Assembly (NCBI RefSeq): GCF_033547095.1
Contig: NZ_CP137852.1
Location: forward strand, 3,341,501 to 3,405,500
Origin: Sediminicoccus rosea
Lineage (GTDB): Bacteria > Pseudomonadota > Alphaproteobacteria > Acetobacterales > Acetobacteraceae
Length of the DNA stretch: 64,000 nt
Reading direction: 5' to 3'
Notes under the pieces: model-generated
Seen by the model: the letters and a program-made list of their open reading frames with translations, nothing else
The model's database searches: none
What the model was told of the DNA's origin: nothing
Part shown: piece by piece, positions 1 to 59,599 of the stretch
How the letters are laid out: every line of letters starts with the position of its first letter
Numbering within the stretch: the stretch's first letter is position 1
Translations under genes and position numbers: made by a program

Positions 1-209
1 GCCAGCTGGTCGAGAAGGCGCGCGCGCTGATGCTGGTGCACCGCCTGGCGAAGGAGGAGCGCGATGCCATTCTCGCCTGGCCAGCCCGTGTCGCCGCGGA
101 ACTGGCGGCCGAACTCGGCGTCGACGCGCATCGGCTGCAGACACTGATGGACGCCCGACTGCGCCAGCACCTGGCAGAACGCAATGATGTCCGCGTGGCG
201 GTCGCATGA
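1..209 (+). CDS. Terminase small subunit, C-terminal part (prophage A)
   Basis: The gene starts before the window; the reading frame begins at base 3 and ends at TGA 207-209. The visible 68 codons match almost residue for residue the C-terminus of the complete small terminase gene at 61,841-62,443 (shared stretches such as KARALMLVHRLAKEERDAIL). In lambda-like phages this subunit recognises the packaging site and hands DNA to the large subunit. Its stop overlaps the start of the large subunit gene (ATGA, 206-209), as in the second copy. The family is inferred from position and from the N-terminal helix-turn-helix of the second copy. Confidence 0.85.
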   Translation, partial: QLVEKARALMLVHRLAKEERDAILAWPARVAAELAAELGVDAHRLQTLMDARLRQHLAERNDVRVAVA

Positions 210-2179
210 TCAGCGGCGAGCAGATTGTCGCTGAGCTCGGCAACTTCGACGGCGCCGCCGAGATCCTCCAGGCCTGGCGCGACGGCATGGCGCCCGAGCC
301 CGCCCTGCTGGTCTCGGACTGGGCCGACAAGCACCGCATGCTCGGCTCTCGCGGCAGCGCCGAGCCAGGGCCGTGGCGGACCGCGCGCACGCCCTATTTG
401 CGCGACGTGATGGATGCCCTCTCGCCCGCTCACCCGGCGCGGCGGGTCGTGTTCATGAAGGGGGCGCAGGTCGGCGGCACCGAGTGCGGCAATAACTGGA
501 TTGGCTATGTCATCCATCACGCGCCCGGCCCCATGCTGGCGGTGCAACCCACCACCGAACTGGCCAAGCGCTTCTCCGACCAGCGCATCGACCCGCTGGT
601 GGAGGAGACGCCCGCCATCCGGCAGCGGGTCGCGCCCGCGCGCTCGCGGGACAGTGGCAATCGTCAGCTCAGCAAGGAGTTCCCCGGCGGCCAGCTGGTG
701 ATGACGGGCGCCAACAGCGCGGTGGGCCTGCGCTCCATGTCGGCGCGCTTCCTGTTTCTGGACGAGGTGGACGCCTATCCCGGCGATGTCGAGGGCGAAG
801 GCGATCCAGTCGCGCTGGCCGAGGCCCGCGCCCGCACCTTCGGCTGGCGGCGCAAGACGCTGCTGGTTTCCACGCCCACCATCTCGGGCCTGTCGCGCAT
901 CGAGCGGGAATACCTCGCCTCCGACCAGCGGCGGTTCTTCCTGCCGTGCCCGCATTGCGCCGCGATGCAGTGGCTGCGCTTTGAGCGGTTAGTCTGGGAG
1001 AAGGGCGAACCGGACAGCGCCCGCTATCTCTGCGAGGCCTGCGACGGCGCCATCGGCGAGCAGCATAAGACCACCATGCTGGCCGGCGGCGAATGGCGGC
1101 CCACCGCCATCCCGCAGGATCCGCACGCAATCGGCTTTCACATCTCGGCGCTCTACTCGCCGGTCGGCTGGTTCTCCTGGTCGCAGGCGGTGCGCGATTG
1201 GGAGGCCGCGCAGGGCGACGATCGCGCCATCAAGACATTTCGGAACACCGTCCTGGGCGAGACCTGGCAGGAGAGCGGCGAGGCACCGGACTGGCAGCGC
1301 CTCTACGATCGGCGGGAGGAATGGGCGCCGGGCACCGTCGCGGCCGAGGGGCTGCTGCTGACGGCTGGCGTCGACGTCCAGCGCGACCGCCTCGAGGCCA
1401 GCATCTGGGCCTGGGCGCAGGATCGCCAATCCTGGCTGATCGAGCACCGCATCCTGGTGGGCAATCCCTTCGAGGCGGCGGTCTGGGACGAGCTGCGCGG
1501 CCTGCTGGGCGAGACCTGGCGGCATGCTTCCGGCCACCGGCTCGGCCTCGCCATGACGGCGATCGACAGCGGCGACGGCATGACCACAGCGGAGGTCTAT
1601 GCGTTCGTGCGCCGCGCCGGCGCCGGTCGGGCCATTGCCGTGAAGGGTCAGGACGGGTTGCGGGCGGCGATCGGCCAGCCCTCGGCCACCGAGGTGCGGC
1701 GAAACGGCCGCAAGCTGGGCGGGCTGAAACTCTGGCCGGTCGGCTCGTCCTTTCTGAAGGGTGAGACTTACGGTTGGCTGAAGCTGGAGCGGCCGACCGC
1801 GGAGAGCGGCGATCCGTTCCCGCCAGGCTTTGTCCACCTGCCGCTGCATGCGGCCGGCGAGGAATTCTGCCGCCAGCTGACCGCCGAGCAGTTCGTCGCC
1901 CGCGCCGGCCGCAACGGCTTTCGCCGGCTCGAGTGGGTCAAAACCAGGGAACGGAACGAGGCGCTGGACTGCCGGGTCTATGCGCGTGCTGCCGCGGCGG
2001 CCCTCGGCATGGACGGCTGGGGTGACGGACGTTGGGCGCGGATGGCGGATTCGCTGTCGCTGCCGGCAGGCGAGATTCCCACCGGCGGGAATGTCGCTCC
2101 TCCATCGCCGCCGCAGGTCGCGAATAACACCCAACGCCCACGCGGCTGGCTCGCGCCCCGCAACGGCTGGCTTCGCTGA
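206..2179 (+). CDS. Phage terminase large subunit (GpA family)
   Basis: The 657-residue product is a packaging motor ATPase/nuclease that pumps DNA into the procapsid and cuts it. A Walker A-like loop GAQVGGTE is at about residues 86-93, following VVFMK. The Walker B strand FLFLDEVDAY places D186-E187 at the catalytic position. A zinc-ribbon-like cluster of CPHC and CEAC lies near residues 250-280. A nuclease-domain acidic motif, AIDSGDG, is near residue 454. Length is typical for lambda gpA relatives (about 640). The start ATG overlaps the small-subunit stop. A collinear second copy begins at 62,440. Confidence 0.95.
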   Translation: MISGEQIVAELGNFDGAAEILQAWRDGMAPEPALLVSDWADKHRMLGSRGSAEPGPWRTARTPYLRDVMDALSPAHPARRVVFMKGAQVGGTECGNNWIGYVIHHAPGPMLAVQPTTELAKRFSDQRIDPLVEETPAIRQRVAPARSRDSGNRQLSKEFPGGQLVMTGANSAVGLRSMSARFLFLDEVDAYPGDVEGEGDPVALAEARARTFGWRRKTLLVSTPTISGLSRIEREYLASDQRRFFLPCPHCAAMQWLRFERLVWEKGEPDSARYLCEACDGAIGEQHKTTMLAGGEWRPTAIPQDPHAIGFHISALYSPVGWFSWSQAVRDWEAAQGDDRAIKTFRNTVLGETWQESGEAPDWQRLYDRREEWAPGTVAAEGLLLTAGVDVQRDRLEASIWAWAQDRQSWLIEHRILVGNPFEAAVWDELRGLLGETWRHASGHRLGLAMTAIDSGDGMTTAEVYAFVRRAGAGRAIAVKGQDGLRAAIGQPSATEVRRNGRKLGGLKLWPVGSSFLKGETYGWLKLERPTAESGDPFPPGFVHLPLHAAGEEFCRQLTAEQFVARAGRNGFRRLEWVKTRERNEALDCRVYARAAAAALGMDGWGDGRWARMADSLSLPAGEIPTGGNVAPPSPPQVANNTQRPRGWLAPRNGWLR

Positions 2180-51694: not shown

Positions 51695-52461
51695 TGCTGG
51701 ACCTCAACAGTCGCAGCCAGACGTCGGGGCACGTCAACGCCGCCATCGACGCCGCGCTGGTCGCCACCAACGCGGCCACACCGCCGCGCAGCTACCTGGG
51801 CGGCTCCCGCTTGGGCCACGCCTGCGAGCGGGCGCTGCAATTCGAGTTCGTGAAGGCCCCGAAGGATGAGGGCGCCGATTTCGACGGACGGCTGCTGCGC
51901 ATCTTCGGGATTGGGCACGCGCTGGAGGATGTGGCCGTCGCCTGGCTGCGCGCCGCCGGCTTCGACCTCTACACCCGCCGTGGCGGTAGCGAGCATGGCG
52001 AGCAGTTCGGCTTCTCCGTCGCCGGCGGGCGAATCCGCGGCCATGTCGATGGCGTCTTCGCTGGCGGCCCGACCATCCCCGGCATGGCGTTCCCAGCGCT
52101 GTGGGAATGCAAGACCATGAACGCGAAGTCCTGGCGCGAGACATCCAGCAAGGGCGTGGCGGTCAGCAAGCCGATCTACGCGGCGCAGATCGCCGTCTAT
52201 CAGGCCTACATGGATGCAATCGTGCCGGGGGTGGCGGACAACGCGGCGCTGTTCACCGCCATCAACAAGGACACCGCCGAGCTGCACCACGAGCTAGTGC
52301 CGTTCAACGCTGAGCTGGCGCAGCGCATGTCGGACCGCGGTGTCCGCATCCTGGCTGCGACCGACGCGGGCGACCTGCTCCCGCGGATCGCGGCCCAGCC
52401 CGATCATTTCGAGTGCCGCTTCTGTCCCTGGGCCAAGCGCTGCTGGGCACAGCCTGCATGA
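51694..52461 (+). CDS. PD-(D/E)xK exonuclease, Cas4/RecB-like
   Basis: The 255-residue protein has the nuclease core RIRGHVDGVFAGG (Asp near residue 118), ALWECKTMNAKSW (E-x-K near residue 139), and KPIYAAQIAVYQAYMDAI with the QxxxY motif. The C-terminal CRFCPWAKRCW carries three Cys, which with an upstream Cys (ACER) could hold a 4Fe-4S cluster as in Cas4/AddB-like nucleases. Together with the Sak4-like ATPase and SSB-like protein it forms a recombination module. Confidence 0.88.
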   Translation: MLDLNSRSQTSGHVNAAIDAALVATNAATPPRSYLGGSRLGHACERALQFEFVKAPKDEGADFDGRLLRIFGIGHALEDVAVAWLRAAGFDLYTRRGGSEHGEQFGFSVAGGRIRGHVDGVFAGGPTIPGMAFPALWECKTMNAKSWRETSSKGVAVSKPIYAAQIAVYQAYMDAIVPGVADNAALFTAINKDTAELHHELVPFNAELAQRMSDRGVRILAATDAGDLLPRIAAQPDHFECRFCPWAKRCWAQPA

Positions 52462-54809
52462 ACGCATGGGGCGACTTCAACGATGCGGCGCCGCTGGCGG
52501 ATGATGGCGCGACCGATATTCCCGCCAGCGGGAATGTCGAGATGGATCGACTTCCCGCCGATGGGAAGTCGATGCCGCACGCTGGCGGACACGTCGCGCC
52601 GGACATCGAGCAGATCGCCGCCTTCCTCGATGTGGTCTTCGGCTATTGCGATGGGCTGATCCCGGTCCGCGGCTTCGTCGACCAGGGCCAGGGGCTCGAC
52701 ACCAAGCCGCATAACATCTGGATGTCGGCCGATCGGCACGCCGCCGCATCCCTCAGCGCCTATGCCGCCTGGGCCGCGCGCGAGGGCAGCGCCGTCTATG
52801 TCATCCCCGGCACTGTCGCCGAGCAGGGCCAAGCCCGCGCCGAGCATGTGCTGCAAATGCAGACCGTGGTGGTGGACCTCGACGCCGGCGACATCGCCGC
52901 CAAGCTGGCGCACCTCGTCCATCACCTTGGCGCGCCCACCCTCCTGGTTGAAAGCGGCGGCCGCACCGCCGAGGGGGCCGCCAAGCTCCATGCCTGGTGG
53001 CGGCTCAGCGAGCCGGCCGAGGGTAAGGATCTGGCGCGGGTCTGCGCGCTGCGGGGCGAGATCGCCGAGAAGGTCGGTGGCGACCTGCACTTCCGATCGG
53101 CCCACCAGCCGATCCGGGTGCCCGGCACGGTCCACCAGAAGCATGGCGTCCAGCGCCGCGTCACCATCCGGGAGCACCACCCCAGAGTCGAGTTGGAGCT
53201 GCCCGACTTCGCCGCGGCGGTCGCCGCCATGCCCACCTTGCCGGGTCTGGAGGCGCCCACCGCCGCCGCTGGTGCCAATCGGCCAGGACTCGATGCCGTC
53301 CTCACCACCCCAGTGCGGGAAGGCGCTCAGGACGCCTGGACCCGCTTCCAGGGCGCCAGCGCCGCGATCGGCCACTTCGTCCGCATGGTCCACGAGGGGC
53401 GCATGACCGGGGACGAGGGCTGGGAGGCCATCTGCCAGTACAACGCCGCGTGCCTTCGCCCGGTCTGGCCGCTGGACCGCCTCAAGGTCGAGGCTGACAG
53501 CATCTGGGCGCTGCATGTCGACCGCAACGGGCCACCCCTTCTTCGTGCCGCCGCGGCCTCACCCAGCGCCATCCCCGCGCAGACGCTCGGCGCGCTGCTC
53601 GACGACACCTCTCCGATGCCCGACGACCTCATCGGGCCGCGCCTGCTGACCCCGGGTGGAATGCTGGTCCTCGGCGGCGCGCCGAAGGTTGGCAAATCCG
53701 ACTTCCTGATCAGCCTGCTGGTGCACGCCGCGGCCGGTGCGCCATTCCTGCGCTTCACGGCCCCGCGCCCGCTGCGGGTGTTCTATCTCCAGGCCGAGAT
53801 CCAGTACCACTACCTGCGCGAGCGGCTGCAGCAGCTCCGGCTCGACGCCGCGATCGTGGCCCGCGCCCGCGACACCCTCGTCGTCACCCCCAAGCTGCGC
53901 ATGTTGCTCGACGACCAGGGCGTACCCCTCGTGGCCGCGGCCATCCGTGCCGCATTCCCCGACGCGCCGCCCGACATCATCTGCATCGACCCGATCCGGA
54001 ACCTGTTCGACGGCGGGCCCGCAGGCGAAGGCGAGAACGACAACGCCGCGATGATGTTCTTCCTGCAGAGCCGGGTCGAGGCGCTGCGCGACATGGTCGC
54101 CCCCGAGGCCGGCATCATCCTCGCCCACCACACGAAGAAGCTCAGCAAGCAGCAGGTCAAGGACGATCCCTTCCTGTCGCTCTCCGGCGCCAGCGCACTG
54201 CGTGGCTACTACACCTCGGGCGCTATCCTGTTTCGCCCCGACGAGGAACAGACCGAACGCGAGCTGCATGTCGAGCTGCGCAACGGGCCCGGCCTGGAGC
54301 CCATGCTGGTCGATAAACGTGGTGGCGCCTGGGTCGAGCTCGATCGGACCGGCCAGCGCCTGGTGCGGAAGGACATCGGCGGCAAGCTCGATGCCGAGCG
54401 CAGCCGGCGCCACGACGTCATCCTGCAAATCATCGCCAACGAGGCCCGCGAGGGGAAGGTCTTCACTGGCAGCGCCTTCGCCGCGCAGTTCGAGAACACA
54501 CACGGCCTGGGCGGTGACGACACCATCGCCCGCCGCATCAACGTCCTCGCCAACAAGGGCTACATCAAGTTCATCCGCGACGCGCCCGAGCTCGGCATTC
54601 CGGTGAGCAAATCCACCAAGGGCTACCTCCTGGTGCAGGACATGCTCTTCGGGACGGACGGCGAGACGGTCGATCCCGAGACCGGCGAAATCACCCGCAC
54701 CCTCGTCCCGCTGCTGCCGACGCACTTCCAATCGGAGACCAACAACGCGGTTTTGCCCGTCGAGAATCCGGAAATCTGGGTGCTGAATGACCCGGAGGCT
54801 CAGGCATGA
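52458..54809 (+). CDS. Primase-helicase (RepA-like) replication protein
   Basis: The 783-residue protein combines an N-terminal archaeo-eukaryotic primase-like domain (QTVVVDLDAGD near residue 137; GAPTLLVESGGRT; HQPIRVPGTVHQKHG) with a RepA-type hexameric ATPase. Walker A is LVLGGAPKVGKSDFL (near residue 410) and Walker B IICIDPIRNLFDGG. ILAHHTKKLSKQQ is a RecA-like sensor segment. A C-terminal winged-helix-like region (IARRINVLANKGYIKF) may bind origin DNA. Directly downstream is an iteron array, fitting a replication initiator. Confidence 0.85.
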   Translation: MNAWGDFNDAAPLADDGATDIPASGNVEMDRLPADGKSMPHAGGHVAPDIEQIAAFLDVVFGYCDGLIPVRGFVDQGQGLDTKPHNIWMSADRHAAASLSAYAAWAAREGSAVYVIPGTVAEQGQARAEHVLQMQTVVVDLDAGDIAAKLAHLVHHLGAPTLLVESGGRTAEGAAKLHAWWRLSEPAEGKDLARVCALRGEIAEKVGGDLHFRSAHQPIRVPGTVHQKHGVQRRVTIREHHPRVELELPDFAAAVAAMPTLPGLEAPTAAAGANRPGLDAVLTTPVREGAQDAWTRFQGASAAIGHFVRMVHEGRMTGDEGWEAICQYNAACLRPVWPLDRLKVEADSIWALHVDRNGPPLLRAAAASPSAIPAQTLGALLDDTSPMPDDLIGPRLLTPGGMLVLGGAPKVGKSDFLISLLVHAAAGAPFLRFTAPRPLRVFYLQAEIQYHYLRERLQQLRLDAAIVARARDTLVVTPKLRMLLDDQGVPLVAAAIRAAFPDAPPDIICIDPIRNLFDGGPAGEGENDNAAMMFFLQSRVEALRDMVAPEAGIILAHHTKKLSKQQVKDDPFLSLSGASALRGYYTSGAILFRPDEEQTERELHVELRNGPGLEPMLVDKRGGAWVELDRTGQRLVRKDIGGKLDAERSRRHDVILQIIANEAREGKVFTGSAFAAQFENTHGLGGDDTIARRINVLANKGYIKFIRDAPELGIPVSKSTKGYLLVQDMLFGTDGETVDPETGEITRTLVPLLPTHFQSETNNAVLPVENPEIWVLNDPEAQA

Positions 54810-54838
54810 GGCGCTCCTTCGATACGAGATCGCACTGT

Positions 54839-55037
54839 GCGGAACTTGCTGCGGAACTTCCATGTTCCGCAAGTTCCGCAAGCCTGCGGAACATACCTGC
54901 GGAACTTGAATCATCCAGCGATCTCAGTGGGTTGACCAAGTTCCGCAAGTTCCGCAGCGAGGCTTTGCGGAACTTGCTTGCGGAACTTCAGAATAATTCA
55001 CGGAATCAATGGCTTAGGCAAGTTCCGCAAGTTCCGC
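54839..55037. repeat. Iteron-like array: 10 GCGGAACTT/AAGTTCCGC copies
   Basis: Forward GCGGAACTT at 54,839, 54,851, 54,899, 54,967 and 54,980; reverse AAGTTCCGC at 54,871, 54,938, 54,947, 55,020 and 55,029. Two one- or two-mismatch copies are at 54,862 and 54,886. Several copies are head-to-tail with 9-bp period (54,938/54,947; 55,020/55,029). No real gene crosses the array. The position after a primase-helicase gene suggests a replication origin or a multi-site operator. Confidence 0.85.
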
Positions 55038-55046
55038 AAAATGCCT

Positions 55047-55093
55047 CCCCCCTACGGGGGGTGTGCGTGCGCGTCCAAAAGACGCGCGCACAC
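55047..55093. repeat. Two adjacent strong hairpins downstream of iterons
   Basis: CCCCCC (55,047-55,052), TAC, GGGGGG (55,056-55,061) forms the first stem. The second pairs GTGTGC (55,061-55,066) and GCGCGTC (55,069-55,075) with 55,081-55,093 around a CAAAA loop, with a GT bulge. They share G55,061, so they may be alternative or stacked. No T-tract follows. The rest of the stretch to 55,234 holds no gene apart from the RBS (GGAG near 55,225) for the RuvC-like gene. Confidence 0.7.
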
Positions 55094-55234
55094 CACACCC
55101 GGGGACGCCTGGTTCGGGTCCGGGGACCACCCCCAATGAGGCCACATCCCTCCAAGCCGGGCAGCGACGGCGAGCTCCGCCAAGAACCGCGCCGTCGCCG
55201 CCCTCACCAGGACGATCCCCTCTCGGAGACCATC

Positions 55235-55783
55235 ATGGCATTTGCGACTCTCACCATGCCCGCCGCGCATGCAAGCGGCCCGCCCATCGCCCTCCCGCCC
55301 GCGAACAGCCTGGCGCACCACGCCGTGCTTGCCCTGGATCTGGGAACCACCACCGGCTGGGCACTGCGTCGCCAGGACGGTGGCATCACCTCGGGCACCA
55401 TGACATTCCGCCCCAGCCGCTTCGAAGGCGGCGGGATGCGCTTCCTGCGCTTCCGCGGATGGCTGGCCGAGATCGCCGGTCTGTCCGGCGGTGTGGCGCG
55501 GATCGTATTCGAGGAAGTGCGCGCCCATGCCGGCACCGACGCGGCTCACATCTACGGCGGCTTCCTCGGCACGCTGACCGCCTGGTGCGAGGAACGCGAG
55601 GTCCCCTACGAGGGCGTACCCGTCGCCACGATCAAGCGCTTCGCCACCGGCAAGGGCAATGCCGACAAGGCGAAGATGGTTGCGGCAATCCAGGCCCGCG
55701 GCTTCGCGCCGGCCGACGACAACGAGGCGGATGCCATCGCCCTGCTGCTCTGGGCGACCGATCCCACCGGAGGCCGCGCATGA
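55235..55783 (+). CDS. RuvC-like Holliday junction endonuclease
   Basis: The 182-residue protein has an RNase H-like fold: first catalytic Asp in AVLALDLGTTTGWALRR, Glu in RIVFEEVRAHAG, and Asp pair in PADDNEADAIALLLWA. GVPVATIKRFATGKGNADKA is the RuvC-type lysine-rich segment. It would resolve branched phage DNA before packaging. ATG 55,235 with GGAG upstream is chosen; a longer frame from 54,806 is only translated repeat DNA. Confidence 0.9.
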   Translation: MAFATLTMPAAHASGPPIALPPANSLAHHAVLALDLGTTTGWALRRQDGGITSGTMTFRPSRFEGGGMRFLRFRGWLAEIAGLSGGVARIVFEEVRAHAGTDAAHIYGGFLGTLTAWCEEREVPYEGVPVATIKRFATGKGNADKAKMVAAIQARGFAPADDNEADAIALLLWATDPTGGRA

Positions 55784-56554: not shown

Positions 56555-56871
56555 TGCAGCGTGGCCGGGGCGCTCTGCATCGCCTCGGTCACGCTGTTAC
56601 AATTGACCCCATGGCGGCACCGAAATCGATAAGGGTAGAGTCAGGACACGTAGAGAAGGTGCGAGAGCGCCGCGGCTGAGCAGCCACGCTGCGGCTCAAT
56701 CGAGACAGTGGCTTTCGAGCCGCAGGGTCCTTCCTGGCCCCGCTGTATGCGGGGGGCGGAAGCGCGCAACATTCCTAGCGCCAGGCTGTTTTTCCAGGTT
56801 GCCACGGCGCCGCGTTGCCAGCCTCGTCAGGCGGCACCTTTCACCACCACCATCAATTCCAGCAGGTGCGC
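56555..56871. other. Gap between DUF6456-like and ParB-methyltransferase genes
   Basis: No well-supported gene in about 317 bases. A 41-codon frame at 56,554-56,679 (starting ATG overlapping the previous stop, ending in KVRERRG) is possible but lacks an RBS. Frames at 56,696-56,887 and 56,708-57,124 look like chance. A promoter for the methyltransferase pair should be here; none is convincing. Confidence 0.4.
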
Positions 56872-58329
56872 ATGCCCCAGGCCCCATGGTCTGCGAGCGC
56901 CGTCGAGGCGCGCGCGGTCGCCTCGCTGCTGCCCTATGCCGGCAATGCGCGCACGCATTCCGCCGAACAGGTGGCGCAGATCGCGGCCAGCATTCTCGAG
57001 TTCGGCTTCGTGGCGCCGGTGCTCGTCGACGAGCGCGGCGAGGTCATCGCCGGCCATGGCCGGCTGCAGGCCGCCAAATCCCTGGGCCTGGAGACTGTTC
57101 CCACCATCACTCGCGCCGGCCTGACCGAGGCGCAGAAGGCTGCGTACCGCCTGGCGGACAATCGCATCGCCCTGAACGCCGGGTGGGACGAGGCGCTGCT
57201 CGCCGCCGAGGTGGCGAAGCTGCAGGAGATGGGCGGCCTCGATCTGGCGCTCACCGGTTTCGATGCCGGTGAGCTCGATCGGCTGCTGGCCGGCATGGAG
57301 CCGGTGGCAACGGACCCTGGCAACGGGACCCTTGCCAGCCCGGCCGTTGCCAGCGCCGACGCCCCTGGCAACGAGGCGCCGGCGGACGATCCCGCGGACG
57401 CCGAACCGGAGCTGTCGCGCGTTGCCGTCACCCGCCCGGGCGATCTCTGGCTGCTCGGCGACCATCGCCTGCTCTGCGGCGACAGCACCGACGCCACCAC
57501 CGTAGCGCGCGTGATGGGCGACGACCGCGCCGCACTGCTGTTCACCTCGCCGCCCTATGGAAACCAGCGCGACTACACCACCGGTGGCGGCACGGATTGG
57601 GATGCGCTTATGCAGGGCGTCTTCCAGCATCTCGACGTGGCGATGCGGCCGGACGGCCAGGTGCTGGTGAACCTCGGCCTGATCCACCGCGACAGCGAAT
57701 GGATCCCGTATTGGTCGGGCTGGCTCGACTGGATGCGCGCCCGCGGTTGGCGCCGCTTCGGCCTCTACACCTGGGACCAGGGCCCCGGCTTGCCCGGGGA
57801 CTGGAACGGTCGCCTCGCGCCGGCCTTCGAGTTTGTCTTCCACTTCAACCGCCAGGCCCGACAGGCGAATAAGATCGTCCCCTGCAAATGGGCTGGGACG
57901 CCGAACAAGGGAAGCGGGCTGCGCGCCGCAGATGGGACCATCTCGGAATACCAGCATGCCGGGCTGCCGGTGCAGGACTTCCGGATCCCGGACAACGTGC
58001 TGCGCCTCACCCGCCACAAGGGCCGCGGCATCGAGACGGAGCACCCCGCGGTGTTCCCGGTGGTGCTGCCGGAATTCCTGATGCGCACCTACACCGACGA
58101 GGGCGACGTCGGCTTCGAGCCCTTCGGCGGCTCCGGCACCACGATCCTGGCGGGCCAGCGCACCGGGCGCCGTGTGTGCGCCATCGAGCTGGCGTCCGCC
58201 TATGTCGACTTGGCGATCGCCCGCTGGCGGATGCTGCACCCCGACCTGCCGGTCACGCTGTCCGATGACGGCCGCGATTACGATGCTGTCGCCGCGGCAC
58301 GGATGGAGGTCACTGCCGATGCGGCCTGA
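56872..58329 (+). CDS. ParB-domain DNA methyltransferase 1
   Basis: The 485-residue protein has a ParB/Srx-like N-terminal domain: NARTHSAEQVAQIAASILEF, then VIAGHGRLQAAKSLG and ADNRIALNAGWDEALL. The methyltransferase follows with catalytic LFTSPPYGNQRDY (SPPY, residues about 225-228) and AdoMet motif GFEPFGGSGTTILAGQRTGR (near residue 420). SPPY suggests N4-cytosine or N6-adenine modification. Phage solitary methyltransferases protect DNA from host restriction. ATG 56,872 is preferred over an upstream 56,815 start. Paralogue of the next gene. Confidence 0.9.
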   Translation: MPQAPWSASAVEARAVASLLPYAGNARTHSAEQVAQIAASILEFGFVAPVLVDERGEVIAGHGRLQAAKSLGLETVPTITRAGLTEAQKAAYRLADNRIALNAGWDEALLAAEVAKLQEMGGLDLALTGFDAGELDRLLAGMEPVATDPGNGTLASPAVASADAPGNEAPADDPADAEPELSRVAVTRPGDLWLLGDHRLLCGDSTDATTVARVMGDDRAALLFTSPPYGNQRDYTTGGGTDWDALMQGVFQHLDVAMRPDGQVLVNLGLIHRDSEWIPYWSGWLDWMRARGWRRFGLYTWDQGPGLPGDWNGRLAPAFEFVFHFNRQARQANKIVPCKWAGTPNKGSGLRAADGTISEYQHAGLPVQDFRIPDNVLRLTRHKGRGIETEHPAVFPVVLPEFLMRTYTDEGDVGFEPFGGSGTTILAGQRTGRRVCAIELASAYVDLAIARWRMLHPDLPVTLSDDGRDYDAVAAARMEVTADAA

Positions 58330-59599
58330 CCTTCAGATGGAGATGATGCCGGTGGCATCGCTCGCGGCCTACGCCGCCAATGCGCGCATGCACCCCACCG
58401 AGCAGGTGGCGCAGCTGGCAGCCTCTATCGCCGAGTTCGGCTTCAACGTGCCGGTGCTGGTGGATGATGCCGGCGTGCTGATCGCGGGCCATGGTCGCGT
58501 CCTGGCGGCCAAGGCCCTCGGGCTCGACGCGGTGCCCGCCATCCGGCTCGGCCATCTGAGCGAGGCGCAGGCGCGGGCCTTCCGGCTGGCAGACAACCAA
58601 CTGGCGCTGAACTCGACCTGGGATGAGAGCCTGCTCGCCGCGGAACTGAATGAGCTGCGCGCCGACGAATTCGACCTCGGTGTCATCGGCTTTGACCAGG
58701 CTGTGCTGGATCGACTGCTGGCGGACGCCGCCGGCGACGAGGCGGGGGGCGCCGCCGGTGATCCCGATGCGCCGGCGCCCGAGCCACCAACCATCCCCGT
58801 CACACGCCCCGGTGATCTCTGGCAGCTGGGGCCGCATCGGCTGCTGTGCGGCGATGCCACCTCCGCCGCCGATGTCACGCGCGTACTGGACGGTGCGTCA
58901 CCGCATCTGATGATCACCGACCCGCCCTATGGCGTGAACTATGATCCGGAGTGGCGGAACGAGGCCGGGGTGTCGGCCACCATGCGCACCGGCAAGGTGG
59001 CAAATGACGATCGCGCCGACTGGCGCCAGGCCTGGGCGCTGTTCCCCGGTGATGTCGCTTATGTCTGGCACGCTGGCGTGCACAGCCGCACGGTGATCGA
59101 GAGCCTCGAAGCTTCCGGCTTCGTGATCCGCAGCCAGATCGTCTGGGCGAAGTCGCGATTCGTTCTGGGGCGCGGCGATTATCATTGGCAGCACGAGCCC
59201 TGCCTCTATGCGGTCCGCAAGGGCGCGACCGGCCACTGGCAGGGCGCGCGGGACCAGGCGACCCTATGGGCCATCTCGAATGGTGGTGACGAGGACGCCG
59301 CCACGGTGCACGGCACGCAGAAGCCGGTGGAGTGCATGCGCCGGCCGATCATCAACAACAGCGCCGCCGGCGAGGGGATCTACGATCCCTTCCTCGGCAG
59401 CGGCACCACGCTGATCGCCGCCGAGACGACGGGGCGGGTCTGCCACACGGTGGATATCGATCCCCGCTATGTCGATGTGGCGATCCAACGTTGGCAGAAC
59501 CTCACAGGCAAGGCGGCGATGCTCGCGGGTGAGGATCGGGTATTCCGGGATGTGGCCGCAGCGCGTGGGGTGCAGGGGAACGCGCAGGGCGTCGCCTGA
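58319..59599 (+). CDS. ParB-domain DNA methyltransferase 2
   Basis: The 426-residue protein has the same ParB-like front (NARMHPTEQVAQLAASIAEF; VLIAGHGRVLAAKALG; ADNQLALNSTWDESLL) and a methyltransferase with catalytic MITDPPYGVNYD (DPPY, about residue 203) and the AdoMet loop YDPFLGSGTTLIAAETTGR. DPPY suggests an N6-adenine enzyme. Overlaps the first methyltransferase gene by 11 bases. Tandem paralogues with different catalytic tetrapeptides imply different target bases or sequences. Confidence 0.9.
   Translation: MRPDLQMEMMPVASLAAYAANARMHPTEQVAQLAASIAEFGFNVPVLVDDAGVLIAGHGRVLAAKALGLDAVPAIRLGHLSEAQARAFRLADNQLALNSTWDESLLAAELNELRADEFDLGVIGFDQAVLDRLLADAAGDEAGGAAGDPDAPAPEPPTIPVTRPGDLWQLGPHRLLCGDATSAADVTRVLDGASPHLMITDPPYGVNYDPEWRNEAGVSATMRTGKVANDDRADWRQAWALFPGDVAYVWHAGVHSRTVIESLEASGFVIRSQIVWAKSRFVLGRGDYHWQHEPCLYAVRKGATGHWQGARDQATLWAISNGGDEDAATVHGTQKPVECMRRPIINNSAAGEGIYDPFLGSGTTLIAAETTGRVCHTVDIDPRYVDVAIQRWQNLTGKAAMLAGEDRVFRDVAAARGVQGNAQGVA

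Follow-up and report, generated by a model that had tools for sequence, protein, structure and literature searches.

In the satellites of Vibrio known as phage-inducible chromosomal island-like elements (PLEs), the RepA_N domain of the initiator is described as co-varying with the iteron origin, whereas the rest of the initiator is conserved, and the specificity of cognate pairs was established by experiment (PMC8263062). According to the same account, the modules fall into two groups and were swapped at least twice, and a second domain is thought to recruit the replisome (PMC8263062). The subject of this study is an array of 9-bp repeats at positions 54839 to 55037 of a 64,000-nt stretch of Sediminicoccus rosea DNA (the window; contig NZ_CP137852.1, positions 3,341,501 to 3,405,500, in a genome of 5.14 Mb), which lies behind a primase-helicase gene of a prophage. 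Judging from sequence comparisons, the array is very probably an iteron-type replication origin, which together with a cognate winged-helix domain forms a swappable cassette. The PLE modules appear to be the closest precedent for such a prophage cassette. As in PLE, the putative DNA-binding domain co-varies with the candidate origin and the rest of the initiator does not (area under the curve [AUC] for class separation, 1.00 versus 0.52 to 0.57 in 67 loci). Unlike in PLE, the winged helix is part of one protein with a helicase and a predicted archaeo-eukaryotic primase (AEP), the iteron words form nine classes, and about 40 class changes fall on the trees of flanking regions.

Lambdoid phages carry type-specific pairs of O protein and ori. 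In lambda, gene O carries the ori in its middle, and the host helicase is recruited through P. The lambdoid O protein is described as binding the iterons of its own origin, beside an AT-rich region and at the initiator gene (PMC7466680). The S. rosea locus likewise has an AT-rich region and iterons at its putative initiator gene. It differs from lambda in that the array follows the gene by 29 bases (only in one class, TA, do iterons overlap the gene end) and in that helicase and primase are fused. In RSF1010, three polypeptides share the work: RepC binds the iterons, RepA is the helicase, and RepB' primes at ssi hairpins (PMC4234260). The prophage protein resembles this system in its predicted RepB'-like primase fold and its RepA-type AAA_25 ATPase, as well as in the iterons and nearby hairpins, but one polypeptide of 783 amino acids takes the place of separate RepA, RepB', and RepC.

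For the PrimPol-PV1 primases, an order of AEP, helical region, RepA-type ATPase, and C-terminal winged helix was predicted as one of several organizations, in passages that name no origin (PMC5862659). The protein studied here appears to share the AEP fold and combines a RepA-type helicase with a C-terminal winged helix; our analysis adds to that account a candidate origin whose word co-varies with the winged helix. Phage P4 alpha is also a single polypeptide with primase, helicase, and winged helix, and its primase is of the Toprim type, whereas the N-terminal domain of the S. rosea protein was modeled as an AEP. In pRN1, ORF904 unites primase, helicase, and winged helix, and an essential region just downstream of the gene is described as having a stem-loop and no iterons, with a helicase of superfamily 3 (PMC4234260). 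The prophage locus differs from pRN1 in the iterons of its candidate origin and in its AAA_25 ATPase. A literature search, which reached few subscription papers, found no paper on the array or on origin cassettes in related alphaproteobacterial prophages. By analogy, the locus would work in the manner of PLE and lambdoid modules, although it lacks some defining features of each. If so, prophages of Acetobacteraceae, Rhodobacterales, and other alphaproteobacteria can change the type of their origin by exchanging a cassette inside one gene.

Iteron array and word classes

The word GCGGAACTT had 13 exact matches in the window (mean of 0.38 and maximum of 5 in 100 shuffles), and ten of these, five per strand, fell within 54839 to 55037, where they read GCGGAACTT or AAGTTCCGC. 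Two near copies with one mismatch (GCGGAACAT) start at 54862 and 54886. An earlier note, written from the letters of this DNA, had counted ten perfect copies of a 9-mer (five in each orientation) and two near copies in 199 bases, and our recount agreed. Inverted pairs and 9-bp head-to-tail pairs (54938/54947 and 55020/55029) were also present as the note had described. Between the end of the primase-helicase gene at 54809 and the first copy lie 29 bases.

Relatives of the primase-helicase gene were collected from a scan of viral contigs (the best 80 of at least 592 relatives), a scan of genomes (the best 80 of 472), related genomes (matches in 12 of 60), and a scan with the word of the second hairpin behind the array, which yielded 97 stretches. 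The closest named relatives, among the best 80 of 472, were mostly Acetobacteraceae. From 276 loci, 195 had a readable C terminus, 181 of these had 230 bases behind the gene, 131 were nonredundant, and 113 could be assigned to a word class. In 103 of the 131 nonredundant loci, the 7-mer repeat count behind the gene exceeded that of all 100 shuffles. The earlier note had suggested looking for the same 9-mer array behind the primase gene of related prophages; an array was indeed found at the same place, but its word differed.

Nine word classes, named after inspection of the arrays, covered 113 of the 131 loci, and 18 loci remained below the threshold. The classes are TA (39 loci; GAGTTAGG), TC (28 loci; GCAGTTTCGG), FC, to which the window belongs (24 loci; CAAGTTCCGCA), GG (12 loci; AGTTGGGA), GC (3 loci; CAGTTGCCA), TGG (3 loci; CAGTTTGG), AT (2 loci; CCAGATTCC), CGC (1 locus; AAGCTGCCAG), and CTTT (1 locus; GACTTTGGGAA). 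Three of the word classes are also denoted by AAGTTCCGC, CAGTTTCGG, and GGAGTTAGG. AGTT was common to six of the nine class words, with N-AGTT-NNN as the prevailing form. The first iterons of TA arrays reach into the 3' end of the primase-helicase gene. Apart from these overlapping iterons, no second, unlinked cluster of a locus's own class word, which would have hinted at recognition in trans, was found outside the array in loci of six classes with at least 4 kb of outside sequence. At the array position of two metagenome-assembled genomes (Hyphomicrobium and Beijerinckiaceae; L166 and L167), another word, CGACCTC / GGACGAACA, was repeated, which perhaps represents a further class.

Co-variation of iteron word and C-terminal domain

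The primase-helicase gene (52458 to 54809, plus strand; an alternative upstream start is possible at 52413) encodes 783 amino acids and matched AAA_25 (E value of 7.6e-22) and PHROG 239, DNA primase/helicase. A PrimPol/RepB'-like AEP domain is predicted from its modeled fold at residues ~41 to 261 (52578 to 53240, plus strand), and the RecA-like AAA_25 (RepA-type) ATPase/helicase domain covers residues 368 to 562 (53559 to 54143, plus strand). AAA_25 was found in all 13 relatives examined with Pfam, and the Walker A motif GGAPKVGKS was unchanged in an alignment of 13 rows. A conserved Arg-hydrophobic motif IV is described after motif III of PrimPol-PV1 (PMC5862659); R220-V221, a possible counterpart, was invariant in the 13 aligned rows. 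The C-terminal domain (CTD; residues 641 to 783, 54378 to 54806, plus strand) was modeled as a winged helix in its first half, a generic fold match, with a predicted recognition helix at residues 687 to 700 (54516 to 54557, plus strand). The AEP-like model, the AAA_25 match, and the winged-helix model are in line with the primase-ATPase with a winged-helix-like C terminus that the earlier note had recognized. Neither domain had a credible match among the sequences of solved structures (best E values of 0.021 and 0.051). The phage replication protein O domain and RepA_N were both absent from the five Pfam families matched by the 13 relatives at E values up to 1.

The word class of a locus was predicted almost completely by its CTD. 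The nearest neighbor by residues 641 to 783 shared the word class in 111 of 113 loci, and both misses belonged to one-member classes, compared with 66 of 110, 66 of 111, 63 of 113, and 81 of 113 loci for the nearest neighbors by other protein regions. Residues ~641 to 783 are thus the only part of the protein tested that tracks the iteron word. Parsimony required 41 class changes on the primase tree and 40 on the ATPase tree but 9 on the CTD tree, with nine classes and about 62 changes after shuffling; 35 changes were required on the RuvC tree (104 rows; 57 after shuffling). A label-free correlation served as a check on the naming of classes. Across 107 loci, array 7-mer similarity correlated with protein identity at 0.56 to 0.65 for residues 641 to 760 versus 0.15 to 0.27 elsewhere, and the partial correlation was 0.51 to 0.63 for residues 641 to 760 and -0.04 to 0.11 in other protein windows. 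Sliding windows over 54 loci placed the transition near residue 640, with class AUCs of 0.44 to 0.67 for other proteins and domains, 0.81 at residues 621 to 660, and 0.92 to 0.99 from residue 641 onward.

Individual loci illustrate this pattern. L009, of another class, is 95% identical to the window's protein over residues 46 to 240 and 98% over residues 361 to 600, but its C terminus is only 58 to 65% identical. L051 and L074, which carry the window's class, are 78% and 66% identical over residues 46 to 240, with C termini of 85 to 93% and 72 to 78% identity, respectively. Among 80 loci (the best 80 of 472), CTDs of other classes were 45 to 62% identical to that of the window.

The extent of the exchanged piece was evaluated in 67 of the 131 loci, all of the Acetobacteraceae type, which shared the same type of second hairpin, had RuvC and Cas4 genes, and covered more than 90% of the protein. 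The CTD separated the classes with an AUC of 1.00; the flanks reached 0.52 to 0.57, with 0.57 both for residues 501 to 640 and for the second hairpin. The class AUC of RuvC was 0.58 to 0.65. The ATPase correlated with the second hairpin at 0.76 and with RuvC at 0.53 to 0.56. For the CTD, the correlations were 0.09 to 0.10 (ATPase), 0.12 (second hairpin), and 0.16 (RuvC). Because both flanks are linked to each other and not to the CTD, we regard CTD and array as an exchanged cassette, which therefore extends from approximately residue 640 to approximately the end of the array. Word cluster and protein tail behave like a lock and its key, passed on as a pair.

Exclusion between prophages of the same genome by origin type was not supported, since 4 of 25 pairs in 12 genomes shared a class, with a shuffled mean of 5.83 (P = 0.27). 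This test counted L142 (labeled "other") as TC. It left out G005 and G035, which we judged to duplicate named genomes, as well as a genome in which only one locus had a class. A stand-alone CTD, such as part of an origin-directed nuclease, was sought in 299 family genomes, with up to 11 candidates scored per genome, and all 26 matches were ends of primase-helicase frames or fragments. All 43 CTDs matched PHROG 38526, a small phage family of 102 positions with no assigned function, which may be a stand-alone relative of this winged helix.

Origin-type features and competing explanations

Two IHF-type sites lie among the repeats on the plus strand. Site 1 (54922 to 54934) has one mismatch and is perfect in the neighboring prophage L019, and site 2 (AATCAATGGCTTA, 55004 to 55016) is a perfect match to WATCARNNNNTTR, which we take to be the IHF consensus. 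In the FC class, the unit is an IHF-type site preceded by two reverse sites and followed by two forward ones, and it recurs at a spacing of 82 bp. Similar arrangements occurred in classes with other words, but not in GG and TGG (up to 7 loci per class). Altogether, 101 perfect IHF-type sites, all on the plus strand, were present in 84 of the 131 loci; in a set of 80 loci, which includes related ones, 60 were found compared with 0.68 expected by shuffling. Both IHF subunit genes are encoded in the host, with matches above curated cutoffs. The array also contains the 50-mer with the lowest GC content (0.40; 54984 to 55033) between 47.5 and 63.9 kb, a candidate unwinding element, while 58 50-mers elsewhere in the window (34.0 to 35.0 and 40.5 to 41 kb) are lower. 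The lowest-GC 50-mer of the neighborhood was inside the array in 69 of 94 loci, with 5.1 expected. GC skew was higher downstream than upstream of the array in all 61 loci analyzed, which are related to one another, and the minimum of the cumulative skew was situated downstream of the array at a median distance of 1.15 kb (55 loci).

The recurrence of the array behind the same gene, the co-variation of its word with the CTD, and the IHF-type sites and AT-rich minimum inside it favor the replication origin over the operator, the two readings that the earlier note had offered. We infer the following sequence of events. The winged helix of the CTD would bind the 9-bp iterons, as their co-variation suggests, and IHF would bend the DNA at its two sites, which are spaced by 82 bp and each bordered by iterons of opposite orientation, so that iteron pairs meet, as the layout suggests. 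The AT-rich stretch would then open and the fused RecA-like helicase would load. More speculatively, the fused AEP primase might prime synthesis, perhaps at the conserved downstream hairpins. Winged helix and array would swap between prophages as one cassette, changing the origin type while helicase, primase, and flanking genes stay.

It is improbable, in our judgment, that the array is instead a multisite operator through which the initiator's winged helix regulates its own operon or the RuvC-like gene, with replication starting elsewhere. The array does sit between two genes of one operon-like run, the fold list for the winged helix includes the repressors MecI and MarR, and the RuvC-like gene starts shortly after the second hairpin. 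However, the array is downstream of the initiator gene and has IHF-type sites and an AT minimum among its repeats, the putative binding domain is fused to helicase and primase, and a total of 12 sites, spread over both strands and grouped around IHF sites, is, as we judge it, more than an operator usually has. Mere linkage would explain the co-variation in another way. CTD and array are adjacent, and the low between-class identity of the CTD could hinder crossover within the block, so that a homology barrier, which homologous recombination cannot break, could keep the cassette together without binding. The chance of this being the whole explanation seems slight, as a coherent change of word in up to 12 copies together with the winged helix is not accounted for by linkage alone and argues for binding. 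The fall of the AUC on both sides of the cassette and the excess of class changes on flanking trees over the CTD tree also speak against it. We find it still less credible that another phage protein, for example a fusion of ParB_N and methylase or the RuvC-like resolvase, uses the array for partition or recombination. A product with ParB_N and an N6_N4 DNA methylase is encoded nearby (56815 to 58329), and IHF sites between repeats recall some centromeres, but the word is hardly tracked by the methylase (AUC of 0.44 to 0.67 in 24 loci) or by RuvC.

One observation calls for caution. A stop-free open reading frame (ORF; 54806 to 55783, plus strand) overlaps the primase-helicase stop (ATGA), crosses the array, and has the RuvC-like gene, whose own start is probably at 55235, as its last part. 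Whether or not a start is present, 126 of 131 loci keep this frame free of stops across the array (231 nt); summed over loci, it holds 22 stops, and the other two frames hold 274 and 295. The primase-helicase stop is overlapped by an ATG or GTG at 97 of 131 loci; such a start is missing in 20 of 39 TA loci, 13 of 18 loci without a class, and 1 of 28 TC loci. Random substitutions, in numbers equal to the distance to the nearest usable relative, would close the frame in about 10 of 24 FC, 11 of 22 TC, and 4 to 5 of 16 TA loci. The repeats might accordingly belong to a translationally coupled gene with peptide repeats, and such a coding feature would also fit the length from start to hairpin, a multiple of 3 in 24 of 24 FC loci, and the third-position excess in the TA class (53/64/83 substitutions by codon position, with more synonymous changes than in other frames). 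We give this explanation as little credence as that of a partition site. Iteron copies occupy all three phases and both strands, TC arrays shift phase (16, 7, and 3 loci), and the end of the frame and its relation to RuvC vary among loci. Moreover, codon positions vary alike in FC (86/71/68) and TC (110/104/108), in which the synonymous share is not above that of other frames. Because FC and TC lack such codon-level bias, we refer to a stop-free frame rather than to an evident protein gene, and, leaving TA aside, we read this as selection that keeps the passage stop-free rather than preserving a protein. The earlier note had seen no credible gene across the repeats and had named a conserved coding frame as evidence to the contrary; the frame proved to be conserved as a stop-free passage spanning the array, and constraint at the codon level did not appear in FC and TC.

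A fuller version of the origin account is possible but rather doubtful, the more so as covariation in one of the hairpins was no greater than in its control. In it, one polypeptide would do the three jobs divided among separate proteins in RSF1010: it would read the origin with its winged helix, open it with its helicase, and start synthesis at the hairpins with its AEP primase. The "address" cassette would have been exchanged dozens of times, as the numbers of class changes on flanking and CTD trees suggest, possibly escaping origin-directed interference, and the origin would have been kept stop-free for ribosomes to cross.

Hairpins and neighboring regions

Two conserved hairpin elements follow the array on the plus strand. 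A double hairpin (CCCCCCTACGGGGGG plus a TGTGCG..CGCACA stem; 55047 to 55092) is located directly after it, and in 36 sequences 97.5% of cells were paired (95.8% after shuffling), with four pairs changed on both sides (1.0 after shuffling). The second hairpin, with loop CCGCCAAGAACC, lies just upstream of the RuvC-like gene (55160 to 55202), and its loop word was present in 82 of 98 loci. In 47 sequences, 87.9% of its cells were paired (80.3% after shuffling) and 54 cells were changed on both sides versus 17.4, but covariation was not above the control (5 versus 4.9 pairs changed and 9 versus 12.2 pair types), and one pair was unpaired in 29 of the 47 sequences. The word CCGCCAAG was noted in the loop of the second hairpin, and G-U pairs were scarce among the changes in both hairpins. 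A role of the second hairpin as a site specific to the primase was not supported, as its identity followed the primase (0.62 to 0.65) no more than the ATPase (0.76) or a Cas4-like gene (0.69). Four Rfam matches between 54700 and 55400 were all far below the gathering scores and were dropped. Candidate roles for the hairpins are those of a priming site, a terminator, or an RNA element.

The array DNA had no match in plasmid and phage DNA. A plasmid protein search with the primase-helicase yielded five records, one of which, in a 4.6-Mb Shinella record, spans the whole protein. In a phage-record collection (E value threshold of 1e-5), Wolbachia phage WO (9 records) was the sole relative, through its ATPase part only. 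Within the S. rosea genome, a third copy of the primase-helicase gene (C1:1297310, L026) is followed by a different word. A related prophage carries the same array about 61 kb upstream (the L005/L019 region), in a block of 88.4% DNA identity. The stretch from window coordinate -19112 to 1766 contains four blocks that match 41870 to 64000 at 87 to 89% DNA identity, so that the L005 blocks and window positions 1 to 1766 correspond to 41.9 to 64 kb, and the match between the two prophages may extend beyond the end of the window. Downstream of the RuvC-like gene, the ORF for the ParB_N-methylase product and the ORF at 58172 to 59599 share a 73% identical stretch (56915 to 57206 and 58350 to 58641), which suggests a tandem duplication.
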